Shown: positions 1 to 25,426 of the stretch, one piece after another
How positions within the stretch are numbered: the stretch's first letter is position 1
Layout of the letters: each line of letters starts with the position of its first letter
IMG/VR virus record: IMGVR_UViG_3300020187_000160
Span: 1 to 28,359 of that record
DNA: 28,359 nt
Direction: 5' to 3' (one strand)
DNA from: a virus
Translations under genes and position numbers: made by a program
The notes under the pieces: model-generated
What the model saw: the letters and a program-made list of their open reading frames with translations, nothing else
Database searches by the model: none
What the model was told of the DNA's origin: nothing

Positions 1-225
1 CATATTAGTAACAGAACTCACATTCCAAGAACTAATGTCTCGGTTGAATGCATCTGCGCCGCTGAACATAGCACTCATATTAGTAACAGAACTCACATTC
101 CAAGAACTAATGTTTCGGTTGAATGCAGTAGCACCGTTGAACGCATAGGACATATCAGTAACAGTACTCACATCCCAAGAAGCAATGTCTGGGTCAAGCC
201 CAGTATTTGCGTAATTGTTCCAAGC
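1..225 (-). repeat. 75-bp tandem repeats encoding DUF285 units
   Basis: Copies span 1-75 and 76-150, with a more diverged copy at about 151-225. The first 41 bases of the first two copies differ at only one position. Each copy encodes one 25-residue repeat in frame. The array continues off the window edge, so the copy number is unknown. Confidence 0.9.
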
Positions 226-855
226 TTCTTTTAATGTTGTTATGGGTGCTTCGGTGACAATACCAAAGTTTGGGACAAAAGTATAACCAGCAGTGAGCGT
301 GATATCTCCTTGCGGCGCGCCCGCAGCAGTAGCGGTATTTGTTAGTGGGTAGTAATAAAGACCATCCTCGATGATAATAACCGATGCAGAACGGCTCAAG
401 GTAGAATTACCTAAGCTGTCGTTTGCATCTAGCGTTACTGTAGCAGTTTCAACGCCTTCTACAACACTCTCATCAAGCGCAGTGAAACCGAAAGAATATG
501 CTCCGTTTGTGACGGTAAGCGTGCCTGTCAAAGACGCTAAACTGATATCCTCAACACTAACTCCTGAGATAGTGTATCCGACAGTGGTCCCCTCGGGGAC
601 GTTGACTGTTGTACCGGAAAAAATAGCAGTAACACCATTTCCTTCGGCCAGATACGAGACGTTAAACGAAGGCTGTAACCAACTTGCAGCACCAGATCTT
701 CTCGCTGCCCTGTAAGTCCTTCTGGTGGATCTTGCCGAAGCCAAAATAGCTTCCAAGCCAGAGCGTAGATTCCTAGGCCGTGGCGGTGTTCTTGCAGCAA
801 TACGAGCAGCTCGAGCTGCAGCGATTGTTGCGAATAAGTTTGAATCATATGGCAT
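1..855 (-). CDS. Calx-beta-like plus DUF285 (BspA-like) repeat surface protein, 3' truncated
   Basis: I read an open frame of 285 codons from an ATG at 855 to the window edge with no stop, so the C-terminus is missing. The start follows an AAGGAG ribosome site and a late promoter. Residues about 10-60 are Arg/Ala-rich. Residues about 65-170 form a Calx-beta-like domain, with [18 protein letters not shown] and later [16 protein letters not shown]. From about residue 200 there are roughly 25-residue repeats such as [16 protein letters not shown], the hallmark of the DUF285/BspA-like repeat family found in bacterial surface proteins. No signal peptide is visible, which suits a phage virion part rather than a secreted protein. 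It follows the major capsid gene but is separated from it by a terminator and has its own late promoter. I infer a virion surface or adhesion role; its exact location on the particle (head decoration or fibre) is unknown. Confidence 0.85.
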
Positions 856-8589: not shown

Positions 8590-10209
8590 TTAGAAATTTG
8601 GGTCGTGTTCGTACACTTGCCATTGCCACTTACCATCTTCTTCTTTATTCTCGATAGCGTTAATTGCATCAGATCCATCGTCGATAAATCCAAAGGGAAC
8701 GACGTCATTTTCGATTTCTTGCATTCTATTATCGAACATCATTTTCTTTAGATTTATATCTGTCATGTCAGAGAAAAATTCTGTGGTGACAAAGTAACCG
8801 AACATGACAAGATTCATCATTAAATCATCATGGTTTCCTTCACTGGCTTCATAAGAAGTACCCTTCGAGATAAAGGTTGAAATCTCCACAATTGTATCGT
8901 CGTCGAAAATTTCTAGTTTCTTTTCTTCTAATATATCTTTGATACCCGAACATCCAAGTCGCTTTGTTTTGCGCGTGATTTCGACGCCAATGCTGTTAGA
9001 TTTTACTGAGGAGGACAGGTGGCAATTATCATATTCTAGATCGTGGTACAGCCCGTTACAAACAACAGTACCCTGATCGTTAGATTCTATTACAACATAA
9101 GCGGTGTTATAAGCAGTTGCATACTTATATATAATATCTGGGAAGAGTATTGGAGAGATAGTGTTATCCCGATACACAGCTACTTGTTGAAAGGGGCGTG
9201 TCGTAATGTCAATAATATTGAACGTAGAATAGTCCTGTCCTCTTCCTTTCGAGACATCAACGGTCATGATGTACTCGTGACTCGGCCGAGTTTCAGAATA
9301 AATTTTTAGAAGACCGCCCTCTAAAACTCGTAGAGGCGCTGATGCAACAAACGCCATCAGCGTCTCTGCATTTATTAGAGTATCTCCTTTACCGAAGAAT
9401 GTGTTTCCATATTCTTGGTCAAACTGCAGCTGAGAAGTATTCGAGATCGTTTCTTCTTTCCAGCTTTCGTCTCTTCCAGGGACATCCCACCAATCTACTC
9501 GGAAAGGCTTAAATGTATTAGTTTTCTGTACAGCGCCTTGCCACAATTTGTGGTACATGTTTCCGATGCCATTGGCAGTAGAGGTGATAATTACCTTTGT
9601 GTCTCGTCCCGCTGTGACAACAGGATACGTGGAAGTATAGAATTCAGCTGCTCGCTCAACAAAAGCAAACTCATCGAGATAGAGCAAATTGACAGACATA
9701 CCACGAATAGAAGACCCGCTAGTGGCAGCAGCAATAATCCGACTATTATTAGAAAACTCAATAGAACCTTTATTGAGAGTTTTACAGCCAGGTTGTAGAA
9801 AGAACGGCAGATTCTCAAGCATAAGTGTAATGCGTCCGAGCATTTCTCGAGACGTGGCACCTTTATTTGCGAGAACCGCGATTGTTTTTTCTGACTGGAA
9901 GATTGCGTACCAGAGCAAGTAGGCGACTGATGAGATTGATTTCCCAGACTGTCGACAAGCAAGTACAATGTTAAAGCGATTATCGTTAAAGTGGTTGAAC
10001 ATACGTTCTTGATATGGGTAAAGCTCGAATGGAACAAGACCATCGTCCAATGAAATAATCTTAACATATTTCTGGGCAAAGTAAGAAGGGTCGCCCATAC
10101 ACTTTTTATATTCAAGGATCTGCTCCCTTGACCATTCTTGCGTAACGCCATCGCGTTTTACATTGATGTTGCCAAGATAGGTTTCATTCATCATTCTCTG
10201 TGCCAACAT
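8590..10209 (-). CDS. gp17: Terminase large subunit (gp17-like)
   Basis: This protein of about 540 residues is the packaging motor and nuclease. Positions counted from the ATG at 10209: Walker A ACRQSGKS near 83-90, Walker B LLYLDEFAF near 175-183, a TSTANG coupling motif near 210, and the RNase H-like nuclease with acidic residues in MTVDVSKGRGQDYS (about 314), VIESND (about 372) and NHDDLMMN (about 457). T4 gp17 has 610 residues. The gene overlaps the end of the small-subunit gene. The start is uncertain: a TTG at 10212, ATG at 10209, and ATGs at 10194 and 10191 are all in frame, none with a strong ribosome site. I use 10209; 10194 or 10191 is also plausible. Confidence 0.97.
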   Translation of the reverse strand: MLAQRMMNETYLGNINVKRDGVTQEWSREQILEYKKCMGDPSYFAQKYVKIISLDDGLVPFELYPYQERMFNHFNDNRFNIVLACRQSGKSISSVAYLLWYAIFQSEKTIAVLANKGATSREMLGRITLMLENLPFFLQPGCKTLNKGSIEFSNNSRIIAAATSGSSIRGMSVNLLYLDEFAFVERAAEFYTSTYPVVTAGRDTKVIITSTANGIGNMYHKLWQGAVQKTNTFKPFRVDWWDVPGRDESWKEETISNTSQLQFDQEYGNTFFGKGDTLINAETLMAFVASAPLRVLEGGLLKIYSETRPSHEYIMTVDVSKGRGQDYSTFNIIDITTRPFQQVAVYRDNTISPILFPDIIYKYATAYNTAYVVIESNDQGTVVCNGLYHDLEYDNCHLSSSVKSNSIGVEITRKTKRLGCSGIKDILEEKKLEIFDDDTIVEISTFISKGTSYEASEGNHDDLMMNLVMFGYFVTTEFFSDMTDINLKKMMFDNRMQEIENDVVPFGFIDDGSDAINAIENKEEDGKWQWQVYEHDPNF

Positions 10210-10534
10210 CAATTACCGCCCTTTCTTCATCATGTAGTAAACGTTGTAGTTCAGTTGTGCTACCTAAGAACAAATTGTTATTCGTAATTTGTTTTTTAGG
10301 CTCGTCTGATTTATTGATGTCTTTGTGTTTTTTATTCAGATCCATCAACTTATCATTCACATCAGAAACGTTTTTAATCATTCCTGATAATACTTCGAAC
10401 GCTCTGGGATGCTCTGATTCTCTCGCGACTTCTATCATGAGTTCAAGGCTACGTTTACCGTTTTCTATCAACTCATAATAGGTGTCGCGAGAATATTCAT
10501 AATCAGTCTTTACGTTTGGATCATCTTCTTTCAT
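10184..10534 (-). CDS. gp16: Terminase small subunit (gp16-like)
   Basis: This 116-residue protein lies directly before the large terminase gene and overlaps it, the T4 arrangement. T4 gp16 (164 aa) is a helical ring-forming protein that recognises DNA and stimulates gp17. The sequence is mostly helical, with DTYYELIENGKRSLELMIEV (about 18-37), HPRAFEVLSGMIKNVSDVND (about 43-62) and LMDLNKKHKDINK. These match the usual small-terminase pattern of T4-like phages. The ribosome site is poor (GTGAG). The gene begins 7 bases after the stop of the 1839-aa gene, so it is probably cotranscribed with it. Confidence 0.93.
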   Translation of the reverse strand: MKEDDPNVKTDYEYSRDTYYELIENGKRSLELMIEVARESEHPRAFEVLSGMIKNVSDVNDKLMDLNKKHKDINKSDEPKKQITNNNLFLGSTTELQRLLHDEERAVIDVGTENDE

Positions 10535-10540: not shown

Positions 10541-13500
10541 TCACAATTTTTTCAAATAACTCATATCACCAATTGTTATAGATTTTGTCGCGTCATTTCC
10601 AGAGAACCTGATGTATCCTTCTCTCGGGAAAATAGAACATTCTCCTGCCGCCAGAGAGTCAAGGGTTTCATCTTCTACGATAGTAGCAGCAACACCGTCT
10701 ATCTTAATATTTAGTGCTGGTTTATTTCGCGTCGAGAGAATCATAAGGTCTGAGTCGAAAGAACCATTGCCAGCAGTACCGACTCTTACATAAAAGTCTT
10801 CAGATTTAACCTTCCAATCTTTCAGGACAATCCCATTAGTAATGTTGGCGCCAGCAACTGAGTAATCTTGTTCTGTTATCTCAACAAAGGTTGCCGGACC
10901 AACGGAACCGGTTGATGTTTGTAAAGAAGTGTAAACCAATACATCGTTGATGTAGTACGTTATCGCCGTCCCAATTCGTTTGACAGAGAACGCCATTCCT
11001 CGAATAGCGTGCTGCGCCATATCTGTACTTACAGTTGTGTTATTGACAGATTCTAGGGCTTCTTTGGAGGATTGGTTGTATGCATCAATATCTTGTTGAA
11101 TATAAGCAAGCGTATATTCTCCGCTACTTACTGTGTCTACCACTACACCATTCTCGACAATATGGATATCGATATTCGGAGTATTCCACAATAGAGAACG
11201 GTCGTCACCGGTAATTGATGATCTCTCTAATCTAAATCCAAAATCGATATGGTTTAATTCAGTAGGAAACAGCGCGCCAGAATATTGGTGAGAAGACAGG
11301 CCGAACGAAGGCTTGACCCAAGCCGAACCTTCTCCAGAAGACCCTGCTTTTAAGTCAGGATAAAGAAAGGATCTGTTGTGTGCCCCGCGCTGATTACAGA
11401 TATTATACACAACTTCACAGTCAGAATTCCCTCTAAGATTGTCAGCGACTCGAAATCCTACTTTAAAATTACTACGGTAACCGCTAATGTTGCTTTGGGC
11501 ATAATTATATGTTGACAACAAAGTTCCAATCGGTTGCATAAAATGTCTCACCTGGGCTCTCATATAATTATTATAACTCGTGCTATAGGCCGTTGGGTTA
11601 GTTTCAAGCCACATGGCGCCACCGACTATGGTATCTGTTGAAACCACACCAATATCACTGTAAGCCGCGCTGCTTAATACTGGGTCGGAAGCCGTCGCTG
11701 ATGATGACGCATTCCCGCCATAACCATCGTTCAATAAAGAACGTAAGGTAACACTGATCGGCGCGTGAGTTCCATTGAGACTCAAAGTTTCTGTTTTCCC
11801 TAATGCTGTTGCACTCGGATAGATAGAAGTCGTGTCTGATTCGAACGTCCATTCTTCATTATTATCATTCCAAATACCGTGCATGATTCCAGTAGAATGA
11901 TGCTCATCCGCGACAAAGGTTTGTGTCCCAGAAAGATCGTCGAAAGAAACCTTAACGCCGTCAATTGTGGCGTCAGAAGAAGAATGCGTAGTTTTATAAG
12001 ATATTGCTGTGTCGTCGACAACCTTAACCCAATCAGAACCATTCCAAGAATACTCGTCCCAAAAGAATCTAGAGTAATAGTCGTCGGCGACATTTAAGTT
12101 TTTGTCAGGAGTACCGGCAGACTCAATCCACCATCCGTCTTGGTTTGTTGTGATAAAGGCACCAAATGCGTGAGAATAAAAACGATACGCTTGATGATCA
12201 GCGCCGGTATTAAAATTAAACGAATTGTCTTTAAACGCAAACTCGTCAGGATGAGTTACGTTGTCGAATGGGTAGAAAATAATATCTTTACTAAATTGTG
12301 ATGTGGACTGATCCCAGACATAATTCCTTCGAATAATACCCTTTACCCCATCCTTTCTGGTGAATCCAATAGGCGTATTGAGAGACCACCCATGTGCGAA
12401 CCCAAAGTAAGAAGCTGAACTCCAGCCATTCAGCGCGTCATCATTATGGAGGCTTGTATATCCACTTTGATTAACATACGAAGTGCTGTAACCGATATTG
12501 GAAACGTTTGCTGGATTTACCATCGCTGTTATAGTAGAAGAACCATATGACAGCGTTGCCGGTCTAGCGCGAGGCACACCATCATTTGTAGTTATTTTAA
12601 GCGAATCAGGGGAGTAATTAGAAAGATACCAATTGCCGTCATAACAACCCATCAACTTACGAGACCAATCAAAGGTTGTAGACGCGGGAAGCGTATTGTT
12701 AGCGTTACTCCAGAAATTACCACCTCCAGAAATTACCAAACCTGTGCGGTTTTGATAGTTAATATACCCACCAAAGTTCACGTTGGTCCTATTCGCTTGT
12801 GTTCCGTTGATCTCGTCCCACCAAGAAAAATATGTGTTGAACGATGTATTAGTAGCATAGTTATTATTGTAGCTATATGAACTACTATCATTATAAACAA
12901 TAGCCAATTCATCGTTGAGTTTATTCGCAACTAGAGCAGCCGTCGATCCCCAATACCATAACGTGTTATTTTCGTCGAAAGCGACTGCAGTGGTCGAATC
13001 AAACCCAGTCCAAGTAACACCACGGTCTGTAGATTTAACTAACGCGCCTTCAATAATTGCCCAAACGACTCTGTTTGTTCCACCAACAGAAGAACCTGTG
13101 GTAACACAGTACCCTATATTATCAGGATTTGACCCAACTGTTAAAGATCCTGCTGTTCCTGGTGTATACAACTTCACTGTTCCAGTTGTATTACCGGTGG
13201 GATCACCGACAGCAACAAACGTAGAAGTAATACCAACAGATCCGGAAACGATTTCTAAATGTTCTTCTACACTATAGTCTGAGAGTTTATAGATGAAAGT
13301 GTCGTCTGATTGAGAAACCGCTAACCTACTGCCGCCAGCATCAATACTGATAGAAGAACCAAAGCGGATATTGTCTGCGGTGTGCGTAGAATTAATTGTT
13401 TGCAACAAATTTCCCGAGATCAAATCATAAACATACACCACCCCCGCCGCATCATGCGTGTCCGATGCGGTTTCTGGTGCACCTACGATCAGCAGATTCT

Positions 13501-16060
13501 GGGATGTTGCTAGAGTTTTACCAAACTCATTGCCTGTCGGTGTCGCGTTTGGGTTTGATATAGATCTCTCTAATTGAGGATCCTCAAAACCGCCAGTAGG
13601 AGAATGGAAGACATAAACAGCACCACTAGCAGCACCCTGTGACTCATAAGGAGAGCCGATGATAGCTCTGTCGCCAGATATCGAAACAGTAAATCCGAAA
13701 CGATCTCCGGCTGAGTTTGAGCTTGTGTCTGGGTTTTGAATAGCACCAACCCAATTTGGACTCGAGACATCATCGATATTGAAAATATAACACATACCAC
13801 TAGACTGAGTTATTCCAGCACTGCTGTCTTCATCGGGTGCACTGGCTATCAAGAATGTTCCACCCGAGCTAATTGACATCGCCACGGAAGTGCCAAACGC
13901 GTCCCCAGCTGCATTGGCAACCGAGTTAGGGTTTGTGATCGTACTGTCTGGCGTAATGTTTCCAGATGTTTTTGTGTTTAAGTCATAAAGATAAACCGTC
14001 CCCGAATCATCAGGTGCACCGATCGCTAATATATGCGTGTCGCCTGTAGTTAAATCCATTGCTTGACCGAACAAAGAATCGCTACCCACAGTTCCACCAG
14101 CGGGGTCGAGAGCAGTATATAGAAAGTTCATATCATTATCATAGATATCGACTCGACACACACCAGCGCCGGTGGGATTTGAGTTGACGCAAATATAATT
14201 TCTGTTAACTGTAATATTGGTTCCGAAATCAACGCTGTCTGCAGCGGACTCAACTGTTGTTGTCGACTGTAATATGGCTGCGTCGAAACTAGTATTAAAA
14301 GACATGTTTTCGACAGTAGGTTCAACACCAACAGTCAGCATATCTTTGACAAGTGTGATCCCCTTGTCATGACTCGTGATCCAAAGGTCACCGCTAAGAT
14401 CGTCCCAAGAAAACCCACTGATTTTACCTGCTGTGGGGAAATCAGTAAATTTAACTGGATCTACGATGGACAGAACTTCTGGTTCTGTAGGCACAAAAAT
14501 ATACATGTATGATCGGCGATGGTTTAGTACAAAAATCGCACTGCGGCCATCAGAAAGAACGACATCTTCTTTAGTTGCGTACATATCCTCGTTACTGCCG
14601 TTGACACCCAACCTGTAGTGGATTCCGTCCAGCGGAGCTCTCCATTGTGTTTGAACCTCACCGAATGTGTCATTGGAGATCTCGGAAGAGTTGTTGGTAG
14701 AATCGTTAAGATACCCTGGATGATCTAAAATTTCTTCTCTATACGAGAATGTGTTATTGTTAGTGCCCGTAATAATTCTACGAGCAATGTTATATGTCGA
14801 CGAGCCCACACCACCACTAGTTGCATAATTAACACGCCAATATTCAGGTAATCTCTTATCTGGAAAAGTAGAAGCGTCAACAGCAACCGAGCCAGTTGTT
14901 TGAGCAATATCGAGCGCGTCAAAAAACGGGCCAGTCTTTGTGGGTGTATGCGCATATATATTTTGGGCTTTATTGAAACCCGCCGGCAAAATATCAAACC
15001 AAGAATGAGCAAAAGATCGGTTATTTGAATATGACCCAACACCATACATCGTGCCTCGAATTCGCCCGAGATCCGTGTCTAATAATTCCTTTGTGTATCT
15101 CGCATAATGTGTCTTGTAGAAGTAATCTAGAAAACTGGTTGTGCCTGTGCTTCTAAACTCTTGTCTGTCATGATACTGTCTTCTCCACAAATTATACTCA
15201 TCTCCCAGTGTGGGCAATGGAGTCGTGGAAGCATTGCCCATTAACTCATGAGGCTTCTTGATCCCCCCGAGCCATCCATCGCGAAGATAAGTCATATGAA
15301 AATCTCTCGCGATTGAATAATTCTTGTATCCGTGTCCAAGAGCAGACATACCAGCGAACCAAAGAGGTTTGGTTATCTCAGTCAAACCCGTTGGTTGCTC
15401 AAATACAATTTTGTAGTCGATGATTAGAGTTTCTGTTAACTCTTGGACTACAGCCGGTGAAACGGCAGTATAAGAAAGTATAGGAAGGTCAATATTTTTG
15501 CCAGTATAATCATTCCAGTCGGTAATTTTGGTGGTATCATTATGCCCATTTGTGAAGTAAGATGCCCCGAAGCTGGTATTAGTGGAAATTGATAATGCTA
15601 GAGTATTTACTGTAAACGCAGTGCCTGTGGGTGGTAGGAATTGTTGTGTTAATTTAATATAGAATTCATTGGTCACTTCATCATACGTCAACCACTCGTA
15701 TGGCAAAACGCCAGGAATAACATTTCCGAACCTCACCTCAAACCGTGGGTCTGTTTGCAGCTTGGGTTGCTCACTAGCGAGTTCGGTTTTAACTTCATCG
15801 GAAGCGATGATGAAAGAGTTACCGATCAAACTCGCGCGAGTACCGTAGGTAAAACGATCGTCGAGCCACCAACCGGAGGTGTCCCCATAGTTGTTTAACG
15901 TGTTTGTTCTAGCGTCATGATATGACGTAGCAACTCCAGTAGAAGACATCGTTCGATCAAATGCAAATTCTGTAATTCTATTTTCGATCCAGTCAGTAGT
16001 AAAAACAACCTCACCGAGTGCGTTCTGCTTTTGGATTCTATAAAGACCTTTATACATCAT
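10541..16060 (-). CDS. Giant FG-GAP/BNR-repeat virion protein, 1839 aa (putative adhesin or fibre)
   Basis: I do not recognise this protein as a whole. The N-terminal 600 residues have no motif I know. Residues about 640-960 hold a beta-propeller with FG-GAP-like blades: ILAIGAPDDSGTVYLYDL, AIIGSPYESQGAASGAVYVF and LLIVGAPETASD. Near residue 1010, STDRGVTW is a BNR/Asp-box motif. The region around 1510-1760 resembles a concanavalin/LamG-like jelly roll, with AFSVKRIGTAITYYINDVLV. No signal peptide or membrane segment is seen. It follows the related 1386-aa gene by 14 bases and starts at tandem ATG codons after CAGGAA. Its position in the late virion operon suggests a fibre or adhesin that contacts the host surface; that is inference. 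The dependence of FG-GAP blades on bound calcium is known for the family. Confidence 0.85.
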   Translation of the reverse strand: MMYKGLYRIQKQNALGEVVFTTDWIENRITEFAFDRTMSSTGVATSYHDARTNTLNNYGDTSGWWLDDRFTYGTRASLIGNSFIIASDEVKTELASEQPKLQTDPRFEVRFGNVIPGVLPYEWLTYDEVTNEFYIKLTQQFLPPTGTAFTVNTLALSISTNTSFGASYFTNGHNDTTKITDWNDYTGKNIDLPILSYTAVSPAVVQELTETLIIDYKIVFEQPTGLTEITKPLWFAGMSALGHGYKNYSIARDFHMTYLRDGWLGGIKKPHELMGNASTTPLPTLGDEYNLWRRQYHDRQEFRSTGTTSFLDYFYKTHYARYTKELLDTDLGRIRGTMYGVGSYSNNRSFAHSWFDILPAGFNKAQNIYAHTPTKTGPFFDALDIAQTTGSVAVDASTFPDKRLPEYWRVNYATSGGVGSSTYNIARRIITGTNNNTFSYREEILDHPGYLNDSTNNSSEISNDTFGEVQTQWRAPLDGIHYRLGVNGSNEDMYATKEDVVLSDGRSAIFVLNHRRSYMYIFVPTEPEVLSIVDPVKFTDFPTAGKISGFSWDDLSGDLWITSHDKGITLVKDMLTVGVEPTVENMSFNTSFDAAILQSTTTVESAADSVDFGTNITVNRNYICVNSNPTGAGVCRVDIYDNDMNFLYTALDPAGGTVGSDSLFGQAMDLTTGDTHILAIGAPDDSGTVYLYDLNTKTSGNITPDSTITNPNSVANAAGDAFGTSVAMSISSGGTFLIASAPDEDSSAGITQSSGMCYIFNIDDVSSPNWVGAIQNPDTSSNSAGDRFGFTVSISGDRAIIGSPYESQGAASGAVYVFHSPTGGFEDPQLERSISNPNATPTGNEFGKTLATSQNLLIVGAPETASDTHDAAGVVYVYDLISGNLLQTINSTHTADNIRFGSSISIDAGGSRLAVSQSDDTFIYKLSDYSVEEHLEIVSGSVGITSTFVAVGDPTGNTTGTVKLYTPGTAGSLTVGSNPDNIGYCVTTGSSVGGTNRVVWAIIEGALVKSTDRGVTWTGFDSTTAVAFDENNTLWYWGSTAALVANKLNDELAIVYNDSSSYSYNNNYATNTSFNTYFSWWDEINGTQANRTNVNFGGYINYQNRTGLVISGGGNFWSNANNTLPASTTFDWSRKLMGCYDGNWYLSNYSPDSLKITTNDGVPRARPATLSYGSSTITAMVNPANVSNIGYSTSYVNQSGYTSLHNDDALNGWSSASYFGFAHGWSLNTPIGFTRKDGVKGIIRRNYVWDQSTSQFSKDIIFYPFDNVTHPDEFAFKDNSFNFNTGADHQAYRFYSHAFGAFITTNQDGWWIESAGTPDKNLNVADDYYSRFFWDEYSWNGSDWVKVVDDTAISYKTTHSSSDATIDGVKVSFDDLSGTQTFVADEHHSTGIMHGIWNDNNEEWTFESDTTSIYPSATALGKTETLSLNGTHAPISVTLRSLLNDGYGGNASSSATASDPVLSSAAYSDIGVVSTDTIVGGAMWLETNPTAYSTSYNNYMRAQVRHFMQPIGTLLSTYNYAQSNISGYRSNFKVGFRVADNLRGNSDCEVVYNICNQRGAHNRSFLYPDLKAGSSGEGSAWVKPSFGLSSHQYSGALFPTELNHIDFGFRLERSSITGDDRSLLWNTPNIDIHIVENGVVVDTVSSGEYTLAYIQQDIDAYNQSSKEALESVNNTTVSTDMAQHAIRGMAFSVKRIGTAITYYINDVLVYTSLQTSTGSVGPATFVEITEQDYSVAGANITNGIVLKDWKVKSEDFYVRVGTAGNGSFDSDLMILSTRNKPALNIKIDGVAATIVEDETLDSLAAGECSIFPREGYIRFSGNDATKSITIGDMSYLKKL

Positions 16061-16074
16061 TAATTCCTGTAATT

Positions 16075-19000
16075 CTAATTCCTTGTTAGAGTTAAGCTCG
16101 CACCATTTATTCCAATACCACCTGTAATGGGAACAGTGGTTGAATTTGAAGAGCTTTCTGGGGTATATTTATCTAGCTGCAATGCGCTATATTTTGCGAT
16201 ACCTGCGCCGGTCAGTGGCACAGTCGATTGTTGCTTGTTATATTCTACGCCATATCTTAAGATAGTGAATGATGGCTCAAAGACAGTATTGAGCGCGCCG
16301 GTCAATGGCGATATCGCACTCGTGACAACAGACTCAGGAACATATCTCGTAAGACTCAAGCTTGAAGTTTCTTGTCCGTCTTCTCCAATTTCTGGTGTTA
16401 AGCTGGTGTCTATAATATTGACAGAGCTTGATAAACTGCCTGTTGGCGACCCAGTACTATCTGTAGCGTCTAGAGTAATAACTAATGTCTTGTCTCCATC
16501 AGTGTCATTATCCGCTGTTGCTAAAATCGACAAAGTTGCTGTGTTGGAAGTTATTGAGAGATCGTTCGACAACGAGGATAAGTTAATATCCCCCGCCGTT
16601 ACTCCTGTGATAGTGTAACCAACAGTCGTTCCATCATCAACGTTCGAAGTATTTATTGTCAGCGTTGCTGTATCTGAATTGTTTTCTTCGATCGAAAGAA
16701 CATCAAATGTCATTGAATCATACGAAGGAGTCAAACTAGTGTCTTGTATCACAACAGAAACGCTTGGCGAACCTGTTCCAAACCCGTCGCTGTCAGTGTC
16801 CGCAAGCGTCAATACAAGCGTCTCTTCGCCTTCAGTTATTCTATCGGTCAATACGTTGAATGAAAGTGTCGCGGCGCTGGAGAGCACCGTTAGAGTCCCT
16901 GTCAACGAGCTAAGGCTTATGTCGTCAACAGTTACGCCAGTAATTGTATAGTCAACCGTAGAAGCGTCTGGTACATTAATGGTGTTTAATGTAAGAGTAA
17001 CAAGCTCGTTGGCTTCTGTGACAGTAGCAACATCAAACGCTATATCATATGCGACGGAAACATTGACAACAAGTATCGTCGTTGACGCAACAATGTCACC
17101 GAGTATGCCGTCTTTTCGCAGATTAATCGTATATGTTTCGTCTTGACTGATCGTCTCAAAAACGCTGACTAGACCGAATGAAGCAGTGCTTGAACCAAAG
17201 TTGCCGGTTGGAGTAAACGAACCAGAAACAGATTCAAATATACCTGTTGCTGATTCAATGGTCCAGTAGAGAGATTCTAGTTCTTTGTTCTCTATAGAGA
17301 CATTTACTGTAGTACTGCCACCTTCTGTAATGCTTTCTGAGGCGTTAACGAAGGATATGGTTTCTGGGCCATAAGATGTGTCAAGGACGTTGACTTCTAC
17401 AGAATCTATTATTGGACCAATCGTACTTGTTTTTCTTAGGTTTAATGTAAATGTTTCACCACGGTCGTTTCCAGTGTATTCTGTTAATGCGTCTTCAATT
17501 GTTTGTAATGTTATTACGCCAAACGCATTAGCAAAATCGCCGATTAATGAAACTGTTCCTGATATCGCCAAAAAGTCAGAATCGGCAGAACCTTCTAAAG
17601 TCCAGTACAAATCATCCGCTTCAAAATTCGCAAAGTTCCAGTTTTGTGTCTCTACGAAGATAGAAGAATCTGTCACACCTTCGCCGATTGAAATTGTTGT
17701 TAGATTGTTTCCTGCTCCGTTGGTAATAAGAATACTTTCAGCGCCGTAAGATGTATCGTCAACAGTTAAAGGAAGAAAGGCTACAACGGGAGAAGTCTTG
17801 CTGTTTGCTCTTATTGATAACTGTCTCGTTTCGCCACCTAATTCAGTAAGAGAATCTGCGATAGTTTCAATAGAAAAAGACCCTGTCGAAGTCTCAAACG
17901 AACCCGACATTTCGAATTGGCCGTCTATGCTTTGAAAGTCTGCTGTTGTGGCGTCATCTAATGTCCAGTAGTATGTTCCTACTGGTGTACTCTGCCCCAA
18001 CATATTGACCACAACACTTGATCCCTCGAACAAAGTGAGTTCGGTAATTATTGTTACTCCTGGTTCGTCTAAGAATTTGATATCAACTGGAGTAGTAGAA
18101 GAATCAATCAAAGTTAATGTTAGGCTGTCTACTAACTCAAGCGCGCCGTTAACATCTTTCTTCAGTGTTAAAGTATAAGTTTGATCTTCTTCTGTGGTCA
18201 GGTCGGCAATTGGTTGCAAGAGAAATGACCCAGTAGAATATTCGAAATCACCCGATGTTTGAACTATTCCTGAAGTTGCGGTAAAATCAGAAATCGTCGC
18301 AGATTCTAATTTCCACCAGAGAGTCGCTGGTTCCCAATTATTCGCCTCAACATGCACAAAGAATTCATCTCCTTCATTCATAGTAAGGTATAACACCCCA
18401 CTAGTATCAGAATTCATTAATCGAATTCTTTCCATATTAGCGTAATCAATAAAAAGATAATTCGCTTCATGTATATGAATTTCATTTGTTCTATTATTTG
18501 AAGTTACAAATGCGCCACCATCCTTTGTCATCCAAATGTTTCCATCCGGATATAAATCATACGCTGCACCGTCAGTGTCGTAGAAAGTATCAACCTGTTC
18601 CCAAGTTTCTCGTTGGCGTTTGAATAACTTTACTGAGCCAAAGTTTCTTTCTGAATTCGGGCCAGCATCTTCTCTTACTGCAGAAACAAGCCAAGAACCG
18701 TCATGATCAAGATAGAAGGAAGAGCCAAAACGATCAGAAAGAACTCCTGGCTCAGAAACATTTTCTGCGTATTCATCATGGATTAATTTAGCGTCAAAAA
18801 CATATGAGCCAGCATAAAATTTATATACAAACAGAGAACCATGAGCGGCGTCATATGATATCGGATTTAATGACGCGTCATCCGGCGCGTTGATCACTAA
18901 GAAACTACCATCACCACTAAATTCTACTTGAGTTCCCGTAAATCCAACTCTCGGCGCGCCTTGTGCTACTAAAATAGTTTGTTCTAAAGACCACGTAGCA

Positions 19001-20235
19001 CCCACTCTATTGAATACATATGTCGCCCCATTACCAAAAACAGGACTAGACTCTAGTCGAGGTATAGAAGAAACCGCGAGTTTGTTTCCGGTTTCTGTAA
19101 TGGAAATGCTTTGTCCAAAAGCGGGGTAGCCTAGTGCCATACCGTCCGGATTTGCTATTTTTTCTTGCAGCGACCAAACGCCCGATTCGTCTTTGTTGTA
19201 AATATAAACAGAACCTAAATTTGCGTTACCGTTAGACAAATCATTTCGAGCAGCGACAACTACATAGTCTCCGTCTTGGTTTATCCTAACTTCTCGCCCA
19301 AACCATCCGTTATCGCTGAAGGTCGCGTCGTGAGTCCATGTATCAACATCATTGAGACAGCTTCTGGAATAAATGTGTATGTAACCCAATTCTGTAGAGT
19401 CGTCAGATTCGGAAGGTTGAGCAACCACAAGATAGTAACCATTCTCGCTGATTGAAACGCTTTCGCCGAAACCTGGAAGTTCGGTCTCTAGAGGACTATA
19501 AAGTGTTGTGTTTAATTCCCAGTTCGACGGTTGGTTCAAATAATCTGCACCATAATGACTGTTACGCTTCATTATTTGTACAGCGCGGCGCGGGGGAACT
19601 GCGTTGCCATCGCTAGAAGAAACCAACCAAATACCGTTACGGCTAAACGCGATGTGATCCCCAAAGGAAATATCGTTAACAACTGGAGAAGTTATCTCAA
19701 CTTTATTGTGTGTAGACCAATCGACATTGTATGAGACCATTGTAGTGTCAGCCAACAGGTATGTGTTGTCAGCTGAAATTATGGTGTCGTCGACAGTAAG
19801 GAATCCGCCGATAGAAGAATCTACTACGAGAGTGATTTCGAATAATGTCTTTCTTTTAGAAAAGGTTTCAGTAACAGAGTAAACAATCTGTTCTGTGCCG
19901 ATAAAATTTGGTCGTGGGCGGTATGTCAAGACACCAGTGTCGATATCTAAATCATAATCGCCATTATCTACATTCGCGCTTTCTACACAAAACTTAACGG
20001 GTTCGCCTGAAGAAATGTATGTTCCTTCTAACAGGTTTAATACGTTTACTTGGTTGGTGTACATCTGAATGTTACCGGATGGCGCGGTAAGTTTCCAATA
20101 ATTGTCTATGTCTCTTTTTGCAATTGGAACAAGCTGTCGGTCGACATAGTTGCCATCAACCCGCGCAGCTTCGCCTGGATTGTAATTAAGAGTTCCGTCA
20201 AATGACAGTAATGGGGTATTCTTCTTATCGCTCAT
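16075..20235 (-). CDS. Giant FG-GAP propeller plus Calx-beta repeat virion protein, 1386 aa
   Basis: This large modular protein has no clear named relative. Residues about 165-540 form a propeller of FG-GAP-like blades (FGESVSISENGYYLVVAQPS, FGQSISITETGNKLAVSSIP, SFLVINAPDDAS). Residues about 600-1275 hold about seven Calx-beta-like repeats of two types: one with YWTLE.....DF and TYTLTLKKD, the other with VDYTITGVTVDDISLSSLTG and TEGEETLVLTL. The last 96 residues are a separate threefold repeat. The second Calx-beta type closely resembles the domain in the DUF285 gene at the left edge. A late promoter ends 6 bases before the ATG, and no ribosome site is visible. Cotranscription with the 1839-aa gene is likely. 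I infer an extended, calcium-dependent surface fibre or adhesin. Confidence 0.87.
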   Translation of the reverse strand: MSDKKNTPLLSFDGTLNYNPGEAARVDGNYVDRQLVPIAKRDIDNYWKLTAPSGNIQMYTNQVNVLNLLEGTYISSGEPVKFCVESANVDNGDYDLDIDTGVLTYRPRPNFIGTEQIVYSVTETFSKRKTLFEITLVVDSSIGGFLTVDDTIISADNTYLLADTTMVSYNVDWSTHNKVEITSPVVNDISFGDHIAFSRNGIWLVSSSDGNAVPPRRAVQIMKRNSHYGADYLNQPSNWELNTTLYSPLETELPGFGESVSISENGYYLVVAQPSESDDSTELGYIHIYSRSCLNDVDTWTHDATFSDNGWFGREVRINQDGDYVVVAARNDLSNGNANLGSVYIYNKDESGVWSLQEKIANPDGMALGYPAFGQSISITETGNKLAVSSIPRLESSPVFGNGATYVFNRVGATWSLEQTILVAQGAPRVGFTGTQVEFSGDGSFLVINAPDDASLNPISYDAAHGSLFVYKFYAGSYVFDAKLIHDEYAENVSEPGVLSDRFGSSFYLDHDGSWLVSAVREDAGPNSERNFGSVKLFKRQRETWEQVDTFYDTDGAAYDLYPDGNIWMTKDGGAFVTSNNRTNEIHIHEANYLFIDYANMERIRLMNSDTSGVLYLTMNEGDEFFVHVEANNWEPATLWWKLESATISDFTATSGIVQTSGDFEYSTGSFLLQPIADLTTEEDQTYTLTLKKDVNGALELVDSLTLTLIDSSTTPVDIKFLDEPGVTIITELTLFEGSSVVVNMLGQSTPVGTYYWTLDDATTADFQSIDGQFEMSGSFETSTGSFSIETIADSLTELGGETRQLSIRANSKTSPVVAFLPLTVDDTSYGAESILITNGAGNNLTTISIGEGVTDSSIFVETQNWNFANFEADDLYWTLEGSADSDFLAISGTVSLIGDFANAFGVITLQTIEDALTEYTGNDRGETFTLNLRKTSTIGPIIDSVEVNVLDTSYGPETISFVNASESITEGGSTTVNVSIENKELESLYWTIESATGIFESVSGSFTPTGNFGSSTASFGLVSVFETISQDETYTINLRKDGILGDIVASTTILVVNVSVAYDIAFDVATVTEANELVTLTLNTINVPDASTVDYTITGVTVDDISLSSLTGTLTVLSSAATLSFNVLTDRITEGEETLVLTLADTDSDGFGTGSPSVSVVIQDTSLTPSYDSMTFDVLSIEENNSDTATLTINTSNVDDGTTVGYTITGVTAGDINLSSLSNDLSITSNTATLSILATADNDTDGDKTLVITLDATDSTGSPTGSLSSSVNIIDTSLTPEIGEDGQETSSLSLTRYVPESVVTSAISPLTGALNTVFEPSFTILRYGVEYNKQQSTVPLTGAGIAKYSALQLDKYTPESSSNSTTVPITGGIGINGASLTLTRN
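16078..16365 (-). repeat. Threefold ~29-residue repeat at the C-terminus of the 1386-aa protein
   Basis: The protein segments begin SLSLTRYVPES, SFTILRYGVEY and ALQLDKYTPES, each followed by a V/ISPLTG-, VPLTG- or VPITG-type turn with a Gly-rich tail. The final SLTLTRN starts a fourth unit. The DNA copies have diverged, so this is an old protein-level repeat. Confidence 0.75.
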
Positions 20236-20257: not shown

Positions 20258-20980
20258 CTACAAGACTTCGGCTTGCTCAATTGCGAAATGCTCTCCGTAA
20301 ACTCTGGTCACAACAGACGCAACAGGCGCTGCAGGTGAACCGAATTCATATTCGTCTCCAGGAGCAGGTAAATTTTCTAATTCGAAAGAATCTTCACTGA
20401 CAATTAAAACCTTTGCACCCAGATACATTCCAGCTGGGTGTACAAACAATTTGTAGATCTCTTCCCATTGAGCGATCGATAAACCAACTTTCAGGAGAAT
20501 TGAAAACGTTTGATATAATTCGTTGTCTGTGATGTACGAAAGCGAATCTGGCCCGATAGCCGATTGACCCACTTTGAATATTTTTTCTTTGGGGTATTCT
20601 ATTTCAGGGTCGATCCCATAAAAACTTCTAAAAAACCATTGTATAGAATACTTCGAGCCTTTAGACTTAAACAGCACGCTTGAGAAATTGGCTGCGGCTC
20701 TTTTATCAGGAAACCCTTGGAAATAGCTTTGACCCAACAAAAGTTCGTCTTCGATAAACTGCAGAAGTCTTTCGTCTGTTTGTGTAATATCTCGCGTAGT
20801 GAATAAATGATTAAAGAGATCAGTAGTCTCGTGCGCGTCATCAAATTTATAATATGCTTTTAGTAAAGAAATTAATTTCGGGTATTGCTCAACAAAATGT
20901 TCAGGCAATACATTCTCTACTTGCGGGTCGCGAAAGTTAAACGCCCGTCTATTTTTATCTTCTAAACCGCGATGTGACAT
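20258..20980 (-). CDS. Virion structural protein, tail-associated (240 aa)
   Basis: I recognise a pattern found in structural proteins of marine T4-like phages: ENVLPEHFVEQYPKLISLLKAYYKF at the N-terminus, then FLDE-type helix LLQFIEDELLLGQ, then a block with SVLFKSKGSKYSIQWFFRSF followed by GIDPEIEYPKEKIFKVG. In this type the SKGS...FFR..YG..PEI.YP segment is the constant part. The C-terminal 60 residues are variable and include a Pro/Ala-rich turn. It begins 12 bases after the gp15 stop, with no obvious ribosome site, and precedes the giant-protein genes. A role in the tail or baseplate is likely from context; I cannot match it to a named T4 gene. Confidence 0.8.
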   Translation of the reverse strand: MSHRGLEDKNRRAFNFRDPQVENVLPEHFVEQYPKLISLLKAYYKFDDAHETTDLFNHLFTTRDITQTDERLLQFIEDELLLGQSYFQGFPDKRAAANFSSVLFKSKGSKYSIQWFFRSFYGIDPEIEYPKEKIFKVGQSAIGPDSLSYITDNELYQTFSILLKVGLSIAQWEEIYKLFVHPAGMYLGAKVLIVSEDSFELENLPAPGDEYEFGSPAAPVASVVTRVYGEHFAIEQAEVL

Positions 20981-20992: not shown

Positions 20993-21964
20993 TTAATTAA
21001 TAGTTAATGTTATGGTAAATGTTTCAGTAACACCCATACCAACTTCAACCGCAACTTGGAACGTTACGATTCCTGTATAAGAATTATCCGGAGTATATAC
21101 CCAAACCCCTGTTTGAGAATCGATCGTAGCAGACCCGTATAATGGATCCGAAGATATAGCAAACGCGTCACCAGTAATAGGTTCTATGGTATTATCTATA
21201 ATGAGAGTTCCAGTAATATCTTCACCAGAACGTGAACCAGACCCAGTGTTTCCTCTCGGGTCATTCGCACTCATAGCAAAATATGATAGCAACTTTGTCT
21301 CATCGTCGTAATCATAATAACTGACTTCAACATCATTAATAACGCTTGACGCGTCGTTAATGCGTTTATACAAATTGATCTTCATATCAAAATCTAATTG
21401 ATACACGATTGTTCTTCTCGCGTCCAATGAACCTTCATAATCATCTGAGAATGTTATGGCTTCTAATTTAATCGGGACGTCTTCTTTAACGTCAGGAAAA
21501 TCGTCAAGAGGCTTCATTGTGACTGTATACTGTGGAGTAAAATATGGCAAAATTTGTTCTACAACCTGCAACGCGTCGTCTTGATTCTTTGCGTATACGC
21601 TAAGTTGAAATTGTATGTTATAAGGAACAGGAGTGTACATCTTATATGCTGTTGAAGCAGAAGACGCCATTGCCATCGAATTCATTTTGGGTAGTTGGCG
21701 GGAAGGATCGTAATTCATCGCCAATATTTCGAAAGACATTCTCGGTAGCTTGATTGCTACTTGCCTTTCTTGATTCTCGCCATTGTCCATTTGAGCAATG
21801 CGCTCTAAGAAATTACGACTGGGGCCATAGCTGAGAGGAACCTTCACTTGGCTCAAAGTCCCACCACCCGAGTTTTTTCTAATAACATTAATGTTATTGA
21901 ATAAAGATCCGAACACTGCAACAGATTTGCGTATTCTTTGATGGTAGAACCAAGAGCCAAACAT
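20993..21964 (-). CDS. gp15: Tail completion and sheath stabiliser protein (gp15-like) with added Ig-like C-terminus
   Basis: Residues 1 to about 205 match T4 gp15, the hexameric cap of the tail that joins it to the neck. The start MFGSWFYHQRIRKSVAVFGS, then VKVPLSYGPSRNFLERI, LPRMSFEILAMNYDP and VVEQILPYFTPQYTVTMKP all fit the family. T4 gp15 has 272 residues. Here, residues about 215-323 contain a Gly/Ser-rich linker (RGNTGSGSRSGED) and a segment, YGSATIDSQTGVWVYTPD, typical of VCBS/cadherin-type Ig-like domains, followed by strands ending in TFTITLTIN. This extra domain is not part of T4 gp15. The ribosome site is AAAGG. The gene lies between the two accessory blocks. Confidence 0.94.
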   Translation of the reverse strand: MFGSWFYHQRIRKSVAVFGSLFNNINVIRKNSGGGTLSQVKVPLSYGPSRNFLERIAQMDNGENQERQVAIKLPRMSFEILAMNYDPSRQLPKMNSMAMASSASTAYKMYTPVPYNIQFQLSVYAKNQDDALQVVEQILPYFTPQYTVTMKPLDDFPDVKEDVPIKLEAITFSDDYEGSLDARRTIVYQLDFDMKINLYKRINDASSVINDVEVSYYDYDDETKLLSYFAMSANDPRGNTGSGSRSGEDITGTLIIDNTIEPITGDAFAISSDPLYGSATIDSQTGVWVYTPDNSYTGIVTFQVAVEVGMGVTETFTITLTIN

Positions 21965-22228: not shown

Positions 22229-25200
22229 TTATGCGTCAACAGCGTGACGAACGACTTTGTGTACCATTGCATCAGCAGTTGCAGCAGTTACTGACAACTC
22301 AACGTTACCAGAAACGATTGCAGCTGAGAAATCAGCTTCAGCAGAATCACCAGTGTAGAGAGTACCGAATTCAGTGACGTGAGTATTAGTCCCATCATGA
22401 ATCAACAGAATTTCTGTTGACTGGTACTTGCTATCAGTTGTGTTGGTCGTCTGTACAGTGAACTTGGCTGAACGGAAATCCGCAGCAGCAAAGGTATCAA
22501 GGACAGTCGGAGTAACAGATGAAGTAGATACTGAACCGGTCTTGGTAGCTGTACCAGCCATTACCAATGAAGTCGCAGAAAGATTGAAAGAATCGTCTGA
22601 ATCTTTGAATCGAATACGATCAACACCGTCAGTGCGCATTACAACGTCTTTAGCGAACGCGTCAGCGTAGTAGCCTATAGCGATACCTTGAGCACCTTGA
22701 ACTGTAGCGTACCCACCAATTGCGACACCATATGATCCAGCAGATGTTGCAGAGTAACCAATACCGATTGAACCACTTGAAGATGAGTTTAATGATTTCG
22801 CTTTCGCACCAACCATTACACTCTTATCAGAAAGATCCTGGGTATAAGCACCAAACAACGTTGAATACTGCCCATCGGCGTCAGCTTTAAAGCCAACAAC
22901 TGTAGAGTATTCAAAGGCCGTAGTCGAATTGTAACCAATAAGGACACTACCCGCAGCGGCGGAGGGGTTGTTCGTCTTGGAACCGATGGTGACCTGTTTG
23001 GGTGCATATGAATAAGCCATATGACCAACACTAATTGTATAGTCACCCTCAACCCACGCGTAATATCCAACAGCTGTGCCGTATTTAAAGTCTTCTTCGA
23101 CTTTAGCCTTTGCTCCGACAGCGACTGACTTATACTCTGCGTATGCAGAAGCACCTATCGCAGTGCCGTATTGGCCTACCGTTCTAGCGTCATAACCAAT
23201 AGCGACACCGTGTGATGCACTAACCCTAGCGCTGCCGCCAACGAGGGTGCTATAATCTCCTTGAACATTGGAAAATGTTCCTATTGCAATAGCATACCTA
23301 CCTGTAACGCCGTTCCAATAACCCGACGCGATAGCGTAATCGGATGAACCATATATCGTAGCGCCATAACCCAAAGACGTACAAAAACTAGACTCAGAAC
23401 TAGACCATCCACCAACGCAGGTATTGTGACTTTGTTGGGCTGGAGTATATCGGTAACCAGCTTGATACCCAATAGATACGGTATATGTGTTTGCGGCGTA
23501 ACCTGAAGCACCAGCCGAATGACCCGACGCATTCCAACCGATAGCGACAGATTGTTTATCTTTGGGTTCCGTCAGAGTTGACGCTGTTGAACCACCAGCG
23601 TAAGGGCCCACGAATACTGAGCTGCCTGCTGAGTCAGAAGCCAACAAGGATACCATACCTAAGCCAAGACCAAAGTCAAAACCGTTGTCTGACACCGTCT
23701 TGTTGTAACTAATAATGCGTGAATAGTTGTATCCAGCTGCTGCGCTTGTACCAAGTGTGATGTTACCGATAGCGGTATAAAGGTTACCAGCATGAGTACC
23801 TACGTCACCGTAGTAAGAAGTGATTGAACCGTTATACGCATAGATTTCACCACTCTTTGAGTAGATGTTACCTGCATCAGTTTCGAAACCAACTGAACCG
23901 TAACCAGGATCAGCCGCGCCAGCAACAACCTTATTGATGAAAATATCAGCAGATGAATCTACAGACATTACACCAGCAGTGAAGTCGAGACCGTGTCCAG
24001 CTTGGATACCAGCACCTGCTGAAGCAGAGATAATACCAGTTGCAGGATCATAAGAGATTGAACCAGTACCAGAAACAGCGTTCTTGGCGTCTGAGTCTGC
24101 GCGAGCAGTCGTGTAGTACAAGTTGTCGCCTTCTGATAAATCAGTAGTCGACTTAGCAACAAAGGCTGCATCGATATCAGAATCAACTCGAGCCAATGTG
24201 TAGTACTTGTTCGTGCCTTCTGACAAGTCAGAAGTAGAGCTGGCAGTTAAGTCTGAATCAAACCCTTGGTAAATACCAGTAAGAGTTGTACCAGAAATAG
24301 CACCGGCAGAAGTTACACTAGAAACTTCGATCGCACCAGCTACAAGAGCAGCTGCTGAGAAGGTAGGATCAGAAATATCAACAACGTTAGTTGATTCTAA
24401 GTCTTGAGTCAAGCCTTGGAACAAGTGGTATTTTTGAGTCGTCGCGTCACGGAATAGACCCGTGTGCATTTGATCAATACCATCAGAGTAGTGAGATACG
24501 AAACCCATGTCCAAAACGTCAGAAGCATCGTTGCTGTCTGCGAGGTGGAGGAGAGGATCGTTGATTGTTACAGTAGTTGAATTAACTGTAGTAGTTGTAC
24601 CGTTAACTGTTAAGTCGCCAGCCAATACCAAGTTGTTAAATTCAACGTCATCGCCAGAACCAAGTGCCTGACCTGCAGAGATAACACCAGTAGCTGCATC
24701 ATAAGAGATACCAGTACCAGCAGACATCAAGCCACGTACTTCAGCGTCAGTTCTTTCTGTGAAAGAAACTACACCAGTAACCGAGTCGTAAGACAGATCA
24801 CCACCAGCTGATAAATGAGCGCGAACCTCAGAAGCTGAAGGTCCAGTAACTGTGATAACACCAGTAGCTGCATCGTAAGAAGCAGAGCCATCGCCGCCGC
24901 CATCAGTGAGACTGATTAAACCGCGAACTTCAGCGTCAGTTCTTTCTGTGAAAGAAACTACACCAGTAGCTGGGTCGTAAGCGAGATCGCCGCCTGCAGA
25001 CAAATGTGCACGTACTTCAGCGGCAGAAGGGCCAGTGAACGTAAATGCACCAGTAGCTGCATCGTAACTTAAAGAACCGTCGCCACCATTATCAACTGCT
25101 GATAAAGAAGCGCGGACTTCAGAGGCCGAAGGGCCAGTATATGTTAAAACACCAGTTGAAGCGTTGTACGAAAGTGCACCATCGCCGCCAGTGTCGTTAA

Positions 25201-25426
25201 CAGAAAGAACAGGAATTGGAAGTTCAGTTACAGCAGATACGCGACCTTTCGCGTCAAGTGTAACAGAAACGCGTTTGGCAGAATCGCCATACGTTCCAGC
25301 TGTGCCAACGTCAGGTAACGTATTACCACTGATCGGAGCTACAAGCTCCCCCTGTGCGTTTACGATTAACTGGCCGCCAGCCTCAAGCCCGCTCTTTAGA
25401 ACGAAATTGTGGTTAGATTGAGACAT
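22229..25426 (-). CDS. Fibre/adhesin-like structural protein with YadA-head-like repeats, 1065 aa
   Basis: The N-terminal 255 residues carry repeated SYDAATGVLT....GPSASEVRAHLSA units, including a 63-residue duplicated block. Residues about 260-300 contain LTVNGTTTTVNSTTVTI then DPLLHLAD, a linker common in structural proteins of marine T4-like phages. DLSEGTNKYYT and DLSEGDNLYYTTARADSD repeats follow. Residues about 625-930 consist of short repeats of the form AIGYxAxxxGxYGxAIG, matching the left-handed beta-roll of YadA-type adhesin heads. The last 107 residues are homologous to the C-terminus of the neighbouring 431-aa protein. No signal peptide is seen. A strong GGAGGA ribosome site precedes the start. 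I infer a trimeric fibre on the virion that contacts the host. Confidence 0.88.
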   Translation of the reverse strand: MSQSNHNFVLKSGLEAGGQLIVNAQGELVAPISGNTLPDVGTAGTYGDSAKRVSVTLDAKGRVSAVTELPIPVLSVNDTGGDGALSYNASTGVLTYTGPSASEVRASLSAVDNGGDGSLSYDAATGAFTFTGPSAAEVRAHLSAGGDLAYDPATGVVSFTERTDAEVRGLISLTDGGGDGSASYDAATGVITVTGPSASEVRAHLSAGGDLSYDSVTGVVSFTERTDAEVRGLMSAGTGISYDAATGVISAGQALGSGDDVEFNNLVLAGDLTVNGTTTTVNSTTVTINDPLLHLADSNDASDVLDMGFVSHYSDGIDQMHTGLFRDATTQKYHLFQGLTQDLESTNVVDISDPTFSAAALVAGAIEVSSVTSAGAISGTTLTGIYQGFDSDLTASSTSDLSEGTNKYYTLARVDSDIDAAFVAKSTTDLSEGDNLYYTTARADSDAKNAVSGTGSISYDPATGIISASAGAGIQAGHGLDFTAGVMSVDSSADIFINKVVAGAADPGYGSVGFETDAGNIYSKSGEIYAYNGSITSYYGDVGTHAGNLYTAIGNITLGTSAAAGYNYSRIISYNKTVSDNGFDFGLGLGMVSLLASDSAGSSVFVGPYAGGSTASTLTEPKDKQSVAIGWNASGHSAGASGYAANTYTVSIGYQAGYRYTPAQQSHNTCVGGWSSSESSFCTSLGYGATIYGSSDYAIASGYWNGVTGRYAIAIGTFSNVQGDYSTLVGGSARVSASHGVAIGYDARTVGQYGTAIGASAYAEYKSVAVGAKAKVEEDFKYGTAVGYYAWVEGDYTISVGHMAYSYAPKQVTIGSKTNNPSAAAGSVLIGYNSTTAFEYSTVVGFKADADGQYSTLFGAYTQDLSDKSVMVGAKAKSLNSSSSGSIGIGYSATSAGSYGVAIGGYATVQGAQGIAIGYYADAFAKDVVMRTDGVDRIRFKDSDDSFNLSATSLVMAGTATKTGSVSTSSVTPTVLDTFAAADFRSAKFTVQTTNTTDSKYQSTEILLIHDGTNTHVTEFGTLYTGDSAEADFSAAIVSGNVELSVTAATADAMVHKVVRHAVDA
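24738..24968 (-). repeat. 189-bp duplicated coding block in the 1065-aa gene
   Basis: Identical 42-base stretches occur at 24738-24779 and 24927-24968. They encode the same SFTERTDAEVRG segment 63 residues apart. The intervening SYDAATG and SEVRAHLSAGGDL units are also repeated further out, up to about 25170. The repeats are in frame and close at DNA level. Confidence 0.85.

Follow-up and report, generated by a model that had tools for sequence, protein, structure and literature searches.

The gp15-gp16 insertion

The stretch of DNA analysed here (the window) comprises 28,359 bases of the IMG/VR virus record IMGVR_UViG_3300020187_000160, and this report concerns the insertion between its gp15 and gp16 genes, which contains two adjacent giant genes, P0001 and P0002, together with a smaller baseplate-wedge module, and which may encode a tail adhesin. 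The conserved genes all lie on the minus strand in the T4 order: gp14 (partial), a sulfotransferase-like gene, two fibre-like genes, gp15, the insertion, gp16, gp17 and gp18, followed by gp19-like, gp20-like, gp21-like, gp22-like and gp23-like genes (the "-like" names are assigned by order and length) and the start of a DUF285 protein. The genes of the insertion and its borders are as follows (lengths in amino acids, aa; ORF, open reading frame):

10184..10534, minus strand: gp16 small terminase, the downstream border (phrog_445, E 2.4e-38)
10541..16060, minus strand: P0001, 1839 aa, new-family core with an inserted FG-GAP propeller (ORF exact; 35% identity to the 1859-aa protein of L004, IMG/VR siphovirus 3300025889_000467)
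16075..20235, minus strand: P0002, 1386 aa, N-terminal region, propeller, six Ig-like repeats and C-terminal repeats; proposed linker or shaft (ORF exact)
20258..20980, minus strand: 240-aa baseplate-wedge module, proposed tail adaptor (PF23786, E 2.5e-12, 47.3 bits, cut-off 27)
20993..21964, minus strand: gp15 tail sheath stabiliser (PF16724, E 3.5e-69) with a C-terminal Ig-like (Big_9/cadherin-like) domain at about 21002-21226 (Big_9, E 3e-7)

The downstream flank of gp16, gp17 and gp18 was identified by profile search. An earlier note on this DNA had described two adjacent giant ORFs of 1386 and 1839 residues between gp15 and gp16; their coordinates, lengths and location are confirmed, but the insertion holds three genes rather than two, as the wedge module (20258-20980) had been overlooked, and so had the Ig-like tail on gp15. 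The g15-g18 zone of cyanomyoviruses is a documented hypervariable region (PMC2984593), as the note had stated, and the insertion fits this zone. The cyanomyovirus label applies to the lineage only and does not establish a cyanobacterial host; judged by terminase, the closest relative in culture is phage C48C1 (Kyanoviridae, host unstated; 72%).

Two metagenome contigs carry parts of the same layout. L002 contains most of P0001 with gp16, gp17 and gp18 and is 100% identical to the window, and L005 extends from gp14 to P0002, with a P0002 that is 97% identical. This argues against a chimeric assembly. Base composition was considered as a sign of recent import and rejected, as the G+C content of P0001 and P0002 (0.42-0.43) falls inside the range spanned by nearby genes.

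Domains of P0001 and P0002

The following features were located within the two giants:

10544..10999, minus strand: P0001 residues 1688-1839, conserved C-terminal domain, common to L004 and Xanthomonas jumbo phage XacN1 and partly to Alteromonas phage R22Y
11846..12061, minus strand: P0001 residues 1334-1405, W-x2-Y-x-WNGSxW ... K-x2-H ... DG domain, the most conserved part of the family
13010..13033, minus strand: P0001 residues 1010-1017, Asp-box motif STDRGVTW (motif scan, alignment)
13151..14284, minus strand: P0001 residues 593-970, integrin-type seven-bladed propeller inserted into the core (AlphaFold2; absent from other copies)
16078..16380, minus strand: P0002 residues 1286-1386, C-terminal repeats of about 30 aa, proposed P0001 docking site (homology to the end of the L004 573-aa linker)
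16384..18399, minus strand: P0002 residues 613-1284, six Ig-like/Calx-beta-like repeats (repeat alignment)
18505..19689, minus strand: P0002 residues 183-577, FG-GAP seven-bladed propeller (FG-GAP_2, E 3.4e-11; AlphaFold2)

FG-GAP_2 (PF14312) is matched by three stretches of P0001 (E 1.1e-15, 58 bits) and by two stretches of P0002 (43.6 bits), well above the Pfam cut-off of 23 bits, in agreement with the FG-GAP-like blades first noticed in both giants. The AlphaFold2 model of P0001, built from an eight-row alignment, contains a confident propeller at residues 589-969 (28-29 strands), and the confidence is low elsewhere. The Foldseek "pdb" rows for P0001 were mostly long low-TM alignments, and VIA-align was used in their place: residues 593-970 (model residues 164-541) superimpose on the integrin alpha-M headpiece with a Z of 34.7 and an rmsd of 3.1 Å over 332 residues. 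The propeller of P0002, modelled with moderate pLDDT, gives a Z of about 22 with both WD40 and integrin-alpha propellers, so that structure prediction returns a seven-bladed propeller in each protein. A "propeller inside a propeller" in P0001 is not claimed, as the core around the insert is modelled at pLDDT under 50.

The calcium-dependent adhesion suggested earlier for the propellers is not upheld. A pattern scan for the DxDxDG calcium-loop motif (described in PMC3192720) finds none in the propeller of P0001 or P0002; the only two such motifs are located in Ig-like repeats 5 and 6 of P0002. These belong to a series of six related repeats, each of about 105 aa; the models of those within residues 730-1060 are rich in beta-strands, at a block pLDDT of mostly 53-84, and the better-modelled repeats are beta-sandwiches. 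As to the earlier description of them as Calx-beta-like, the Pfam Calx-beta profile has no match to P0002 at E<=1, and the repeats are classed as Ig-like only. The Asp-box attributed to P0001 is present as one real copy at residue 1010, which is retained in the siphovirus copies.

One Ig-like repeat of the DUF285 (BspA-like) protein downstream of gp23 (window 1-855) shows 42-45% identity with repeats 5 and 6 of P0002, so that separate virion genes seem to share repeat units.

Neither giant resembles a known tail fibre or tail spike family in PHROGs: P0001 matches only phrog_13760 (E 0.032, unknown function), and P0002 has no such match. The gpM domain (PF05939) is absent from P0002 by Pfam. 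Searches of PDB sequences with P0001, Mic1_25 (from the Microcystis siphophage Mic1), P0002 and family profiles gave nothing usable; a weak match of one of these profiles to lambda gpM chain 8iyk (E 0.47) was discarded, as it reflects the siphovirus rows of the profile. Large propeller and Ig proteins with variable ends occur among depolymerases and polymorphic toxins, and the C-terminus of P0001 has no assigned fold here, which raises the alternative that the propellers are a scaffold and the C-terminus an enzyme. However, Pfam and NCBIfam find no enzymatic domain in P0001 or P0002, and the C-terminal domain of P0001 is conserved across lineages rather than swapped; we regard this alternative as the least credible of all.

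A family of P0001-like proteins in tail and structural gene clusters

By sequence comparison, the core of P0001 is a family missing from Pfam, PHROGs and NCBIfam. It was assembled by tblastn (L004 and L003) and then by iterated searches (R22Y, XacN1, Mic1 and Chlorogloeopsis). The closest member is the 1859-aa protein of L004, which aligns with P0001 over the full length and has a nearly identical copy in L003. L004 has a lambda-like tail operon in the order tape measure, 583-aa linker, 1468-aa paralogue, 573-aa linker, 1859-aa homologue, gpM, gpL, NlpC/P60-JAB protein, gpI-like and gpJ-like. The other members are an 1147-aa protein of phage R22Y (taken as short-tailed from its name and head genes only), ORF371 of XacN1, ORF25 of Mic1 (796 aa) and an 861-aa protein of a prophage-like cluster in Chlorogloeopsis fritschii PCC 6912 (L104:25-3943), which also holds a 446-aa linker and phage head genes. 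All members lie in tail or structural clusters, and the linker-binder pair is retained in the six close Mic1 relatives found. Alignments and genomic contexts place P0001 within the family as we propose to define it, namely a shared core with the WNGSxW motif, encoded behind a linker gene in a structural cluster.

The FG-GAP insert is present in the 1859-aa homologue of L004 and absent from the L004 1468-aa paralogue and from the R22Y, XacN1, Mic1 and Chlorogloeopsis copies. The copies lacking it that were scanned (all but the Chlorogloeopsis one) have no Pfam or PHROGs match. No new family member was found with the R22Y protein among viral contigs or with the L004 573-aa linker among phages.

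In the available text of the Mic1 report, the virion proteins detected by mass spectrometry are assigned to a tail region, ORF20-ORF35, that includes ORF25 and ORF26, but these two are not named singly (PMC7156551). This result, together with the structural-cluster location in all phages and the absence of an export domain from P0001 and P0002 by Pfam or NCBIfam, argues against an adhesin or exclusion factor that would be made late and either released or displayed on the surface of the host. Although many bacterial surface proteins contain FG-GAP and Ig-like repeats, such a non-virion role is very improbable.

The linker genes

The gene directly upstream of every P0001-family gene encodes a linker that contains parts resembling Ig, PKD or gpM, the gap being -8 to +14 nt. 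Both L004 linkers combine a gpM domain (PF05939, E 2e-13 and 9e-11) with Ig-like repeats, and a gpM-like domain (27% to Mic1_27, E 4e-10) also opens the Mic1 linker ORF26 (435 aa). The Chlorogloeopsis linker ends in near-perfect repeats of about 30 aa. Three clusters of linkers can be told apart by sequence: P0002 with those of L004 (573 and 583 aa; E 9e-28 and 4e-22), XacN1 ORF372 with the 330-aa linker of R22Y (score 136, 0/500 shuffles), and Mic1 ORF26 with the Chlorogloeopsis linker (score 75, 0/200). The first match, to the 573-aa linker, covers the Ig-like repeats of P0002 with 32% identity over 343 aa.

The C-terminus of P0002 also resembles that of the 573-aa linker, which precedes the 1859-aa homologue (score 92, shuffle maximum 53, 0/1000), whereas the linker of the 1468-aa paralogue scores 44 (20/1000). 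The better match to the linker of the closer homologue is expected if the linker end and the binder travel together, as judged from three pairs. A universal C-terminal repeat was considered and rejected: only P0002 against the 573-aa linker is clear, and most other pairs fail to beat shuffles.

These results bear on the possibility that P0001 and P0002 are two independent accessory virion proteins, neighbours by chance among g15-g18 cargo and sharing no assembly. The g15-g18 zone does take varied genes (PMC2984593), and the cargo at gp15-gp16 varies among the relatives of the window. However, the adjacency recurs in six lineages, twice in L004, with near-zero spacing, and the closest homologues of P0002 and P0001 are both in one siphovirus pair, which makes a chance association quite improbable.

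Phylogeny of the P0001 core

In a maximum-likelihood tree of the P0001 core with FG-GAP removed (midpoint root for drawing only), P0001 groups with the L004 1859-aa protein (100/100), and both group with the 1468-aa paralogue (100/99), apart from the other four copies. The myovirus copy therefore nests with the siphovirus paralogues, in the arrangement (L004-1468,(window P0001, L004-1859)). With the root between the two groups, the split of the siphovirus paralogues predates the split between myovirus and siphovirus copies, which indicates that the gene crossed tail types; the topology suggests a transfer from siphovirus to myovirus. The FG-GAP propeller is limited to the branch of P0001 and L004-1859, a distribution consistent with a later, single insertion of the integrin-like propeller at about P0001 residue 593.

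L004 and L023, a T4-like relative of the window (82% gp17), derive from the same metagenome (3300025889), and the siphovirus and T4-like lineages may thus meet in one habitat.

The wedge module and occupied versus empty sites

The gp15-gp16 site was compared in 80 viral contigs with a related gp17 (74-100% identity), the window and the cultured phage C48C1, among which 38 loci hold both genes. In 25 of these, C48C1 included, there is no wedge module; gp15 is 256-267 aa long there, and -6 to 344 bp separate it from gp16. In the remaining 13 the module is present and the interval reaches 3,340-10,459 bp; gp15 has 323-653 aa in 11 of them and 234-236 aa in two (L039 and L086), where the insertion stands alongside a short gp15. 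An extended gp15 is thus found in 11/13 loci with the wedge module and 0/25 without (Fisher p 9e-5 on 23 distinct size classes, kinship uncorrected).

In the relatives the wedge module forms the N-terminal part of giant proteins (586-1508 aa), usually with Ig-like repeats, instead of being encoded separately. Several of these giants can be aligned either with the repeats of P0002 (e.g. 27% over 364 aa, E 8e-9) or with the siphovirus linker (30% over 171 aa, E 6e-7). The window thus has the wedge-anchored Ig-repeat protein in a split form, to which P0001 has been added. The nearest cultured homologue of the module lies in the baseplate cluster of C48C1, adjoining gp6 (39%). T4 gp7 is missing from pelagi- and cyanomyophages, which have VrlC in its place (PMC7029224).

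The extended gp15 raises another possibility, in which P0002 and P0001 attach through the Ig-like extension near the head-tail joint, as neck or whisker fibres with an accessory role in adsorption or surface binding. Consistent with this, the insertion begins immediately after gp15, the extension (Ig-like here, Ig plus concanavalin-like in relatives) is confined to wedge-module loci, and the P0001 homologue of XacN1 is encoded three genes from the sheath stabiliser. However, the siphovirus copies sit with the gpM/L/K/I/J tail-tip genes, their linkers begin with the tail-tip protein gpM, and the wedge module resembles a baseplate protein; a neck location is therefore unlikely.

In L042 (L042:1850-3811), L045 and L080, gp15 is extended to 535-653 aa with Ig-like domains, followed in L042 by a C-terminal concanavalin-like domain (Laminin_G_3, E 8e-13).

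A model of the insertion

The reading that we favour, and consider reasonably likely, is that the gp15-gp16 insertion encodes, in three structural genes expressed late, a modular tail adhesin consisting of a wedge adaptor, the P0002 linker and P0001 as distal host binder. The two giants probably project from the tail and hold on to bacteria. By homology, the 240-aa wedge module would anchor the adhesin to the baseplate, a role supported by its fusion in relatives to Ig-repeat giants and its co-occurrence with extended gp15. P0002 would be a long linker or shaft, comprising the propeller and six Ig-like repeats and ending in the repeats of about 30 aa, onto which P0001 may dock through its N-terminus. 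P0001 would be the distal host-binding protein, its core enlarged by the inserted integrin-type propeller. The linker and binder appear as a fixed adjacent pair across contractile, long non-contractile and short tails; the part that varies with the tail type would be the linker N-terminus, which in siphoviruses is the gpM minor tail protein domain.

The virion-bound adhesin or fibre proposed in the earlier note is thus the best-supported reading, in view of the position of the family in tail and structural clusters behind linkers, the wedge fusions and the Mic1 mass spectrometry region; its calcium and Calx-beta components are not retained. Several points weigh against the model. The virion location and host binding of P0001 and P0002 are inferred. 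The linkers of the six lineages show no demonstrable homology between the three clusters. The wedge module has no credible PDB match, and its baseplate role comes from family names and gene position in C48C1. In T4, gp15 is a head-proximal tail protein, so adjacency to gp15 alone does not favour the baseplate. Finally, a P0001-core profile found no further member in 25 related or FG-GAP-bearing phage records; its positive control, the same search of 386 genomes of the Chlorogloeopsis phylum, found none beyond Chlorogloeopsis itself.

A more tentative extension, to which we assign somewhat less than an even chance, is that the linker and P0001 core form a portable host-recognition plug-in for any tail. 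Only the N-terminal adaptor of the linker (gpM or the wedge module) would be swapped, the common linker-binder joint being kept. The pair in the window would have been transferred as a unit between siphovirus and myovirus lineages, and the propeller inserted into its binder would add or change receptor specificity.

Neighbouring genes

Between the window and L005, identity is 97-100% for gp15, the wedge module and P0002 but falls to 83% for the fibre-like protein with a YadA head (window 22229-25426), whose YadA-head stretch has the look of a rapidly changing host-range part in near-identical phages. A sulfotransferase-family gene (window 26807-27826; PF13469, E 1e-13) lies between gp14 and the fibre genes, and distant sulfotransferase-like genes are also found near gp15-gp16 in L032, L053, L075 and L076. 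In L075 (1736-3891) and L076 (6298-8453), such a gene and then a possible oxygenase-like gene stand immediately before gp16.

Comparison with known systems

The range of bacteria open to attack by a phage depends on its tail adhesins, most of which cannot be recognised from their sequence. Modular phage tail adhesins are already known; what is new here is the P0001 family, which lies outside the libraries searched, and the exchange between tail types, as otherwise unrelated viruses seem to swap host-binding parts.

The L004 pairs resemble the window most closely, with homologues of P0002 (repeats and C-terminus) and of P0001 (full length with the FG-GAP insert), but the linker N-terminus is gpM, the propeller of P0002 is absent and the operon is lambda-like. 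ORF26 and ORF25 of Mic1 share the gene order, the P0001-family core and, in the available text, a tail region within the virion mass spectrometry set (PMC7156551), but lack the FG-GAP insertion, have a short linker (435 aa) and are annotated as hypothetical. In XacN1 (ORF372/ORF371) and R22Y (330 aa/1147 aa) the core is likewise directly behind a linker, and the XacN1 pair is near the sheath stabiliser, but the linkers are PKD-like and the FG-GAP insertion is absent. No tail fibre homologues were reported for XacN1 (PMC5852040).

FG-GAP propellers also occur in cyanophage S-TIM5 (408 aa, annotated as a virion structural protein) and Vibrio phage nt-1, where they stand alone, outside a linker-binder pair and without the P0001 core. 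The P0001 propeller shares the seven-bladed FG-GAP fold of the integrin alpha chain (Z 34.7) but differs in its 14-17% identity, the absence of DxDxDG calcium loops and its embedding in a phage tail protein. The host recognition cluster of marine T4-like phages, located in pelagimyophages between VrlC and gp14, and the g15-g18 hyperplastic region similarly place variable adhesion or cargo genes inside a structural block (PMC7029224, PMC2984593), but the published g15-g18 cargo is mainly described as metabolic genes (PMC2984593), unlike the adhesin-like giants of the window.

Recurring on contractile, long and short tails, each time behind a linker gene, the P0001 family gives a means of identifying host-recognition proteins when phages of cyanobacteria, Alteromonas and Xanthomonas, as well as aquatic metagenomes, are annotated. 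Two ideas become testable with it: that adhesins are exchanged between phages with differently built tail tips, and that integrin-like propellers may serve phage tails as receptor binders.

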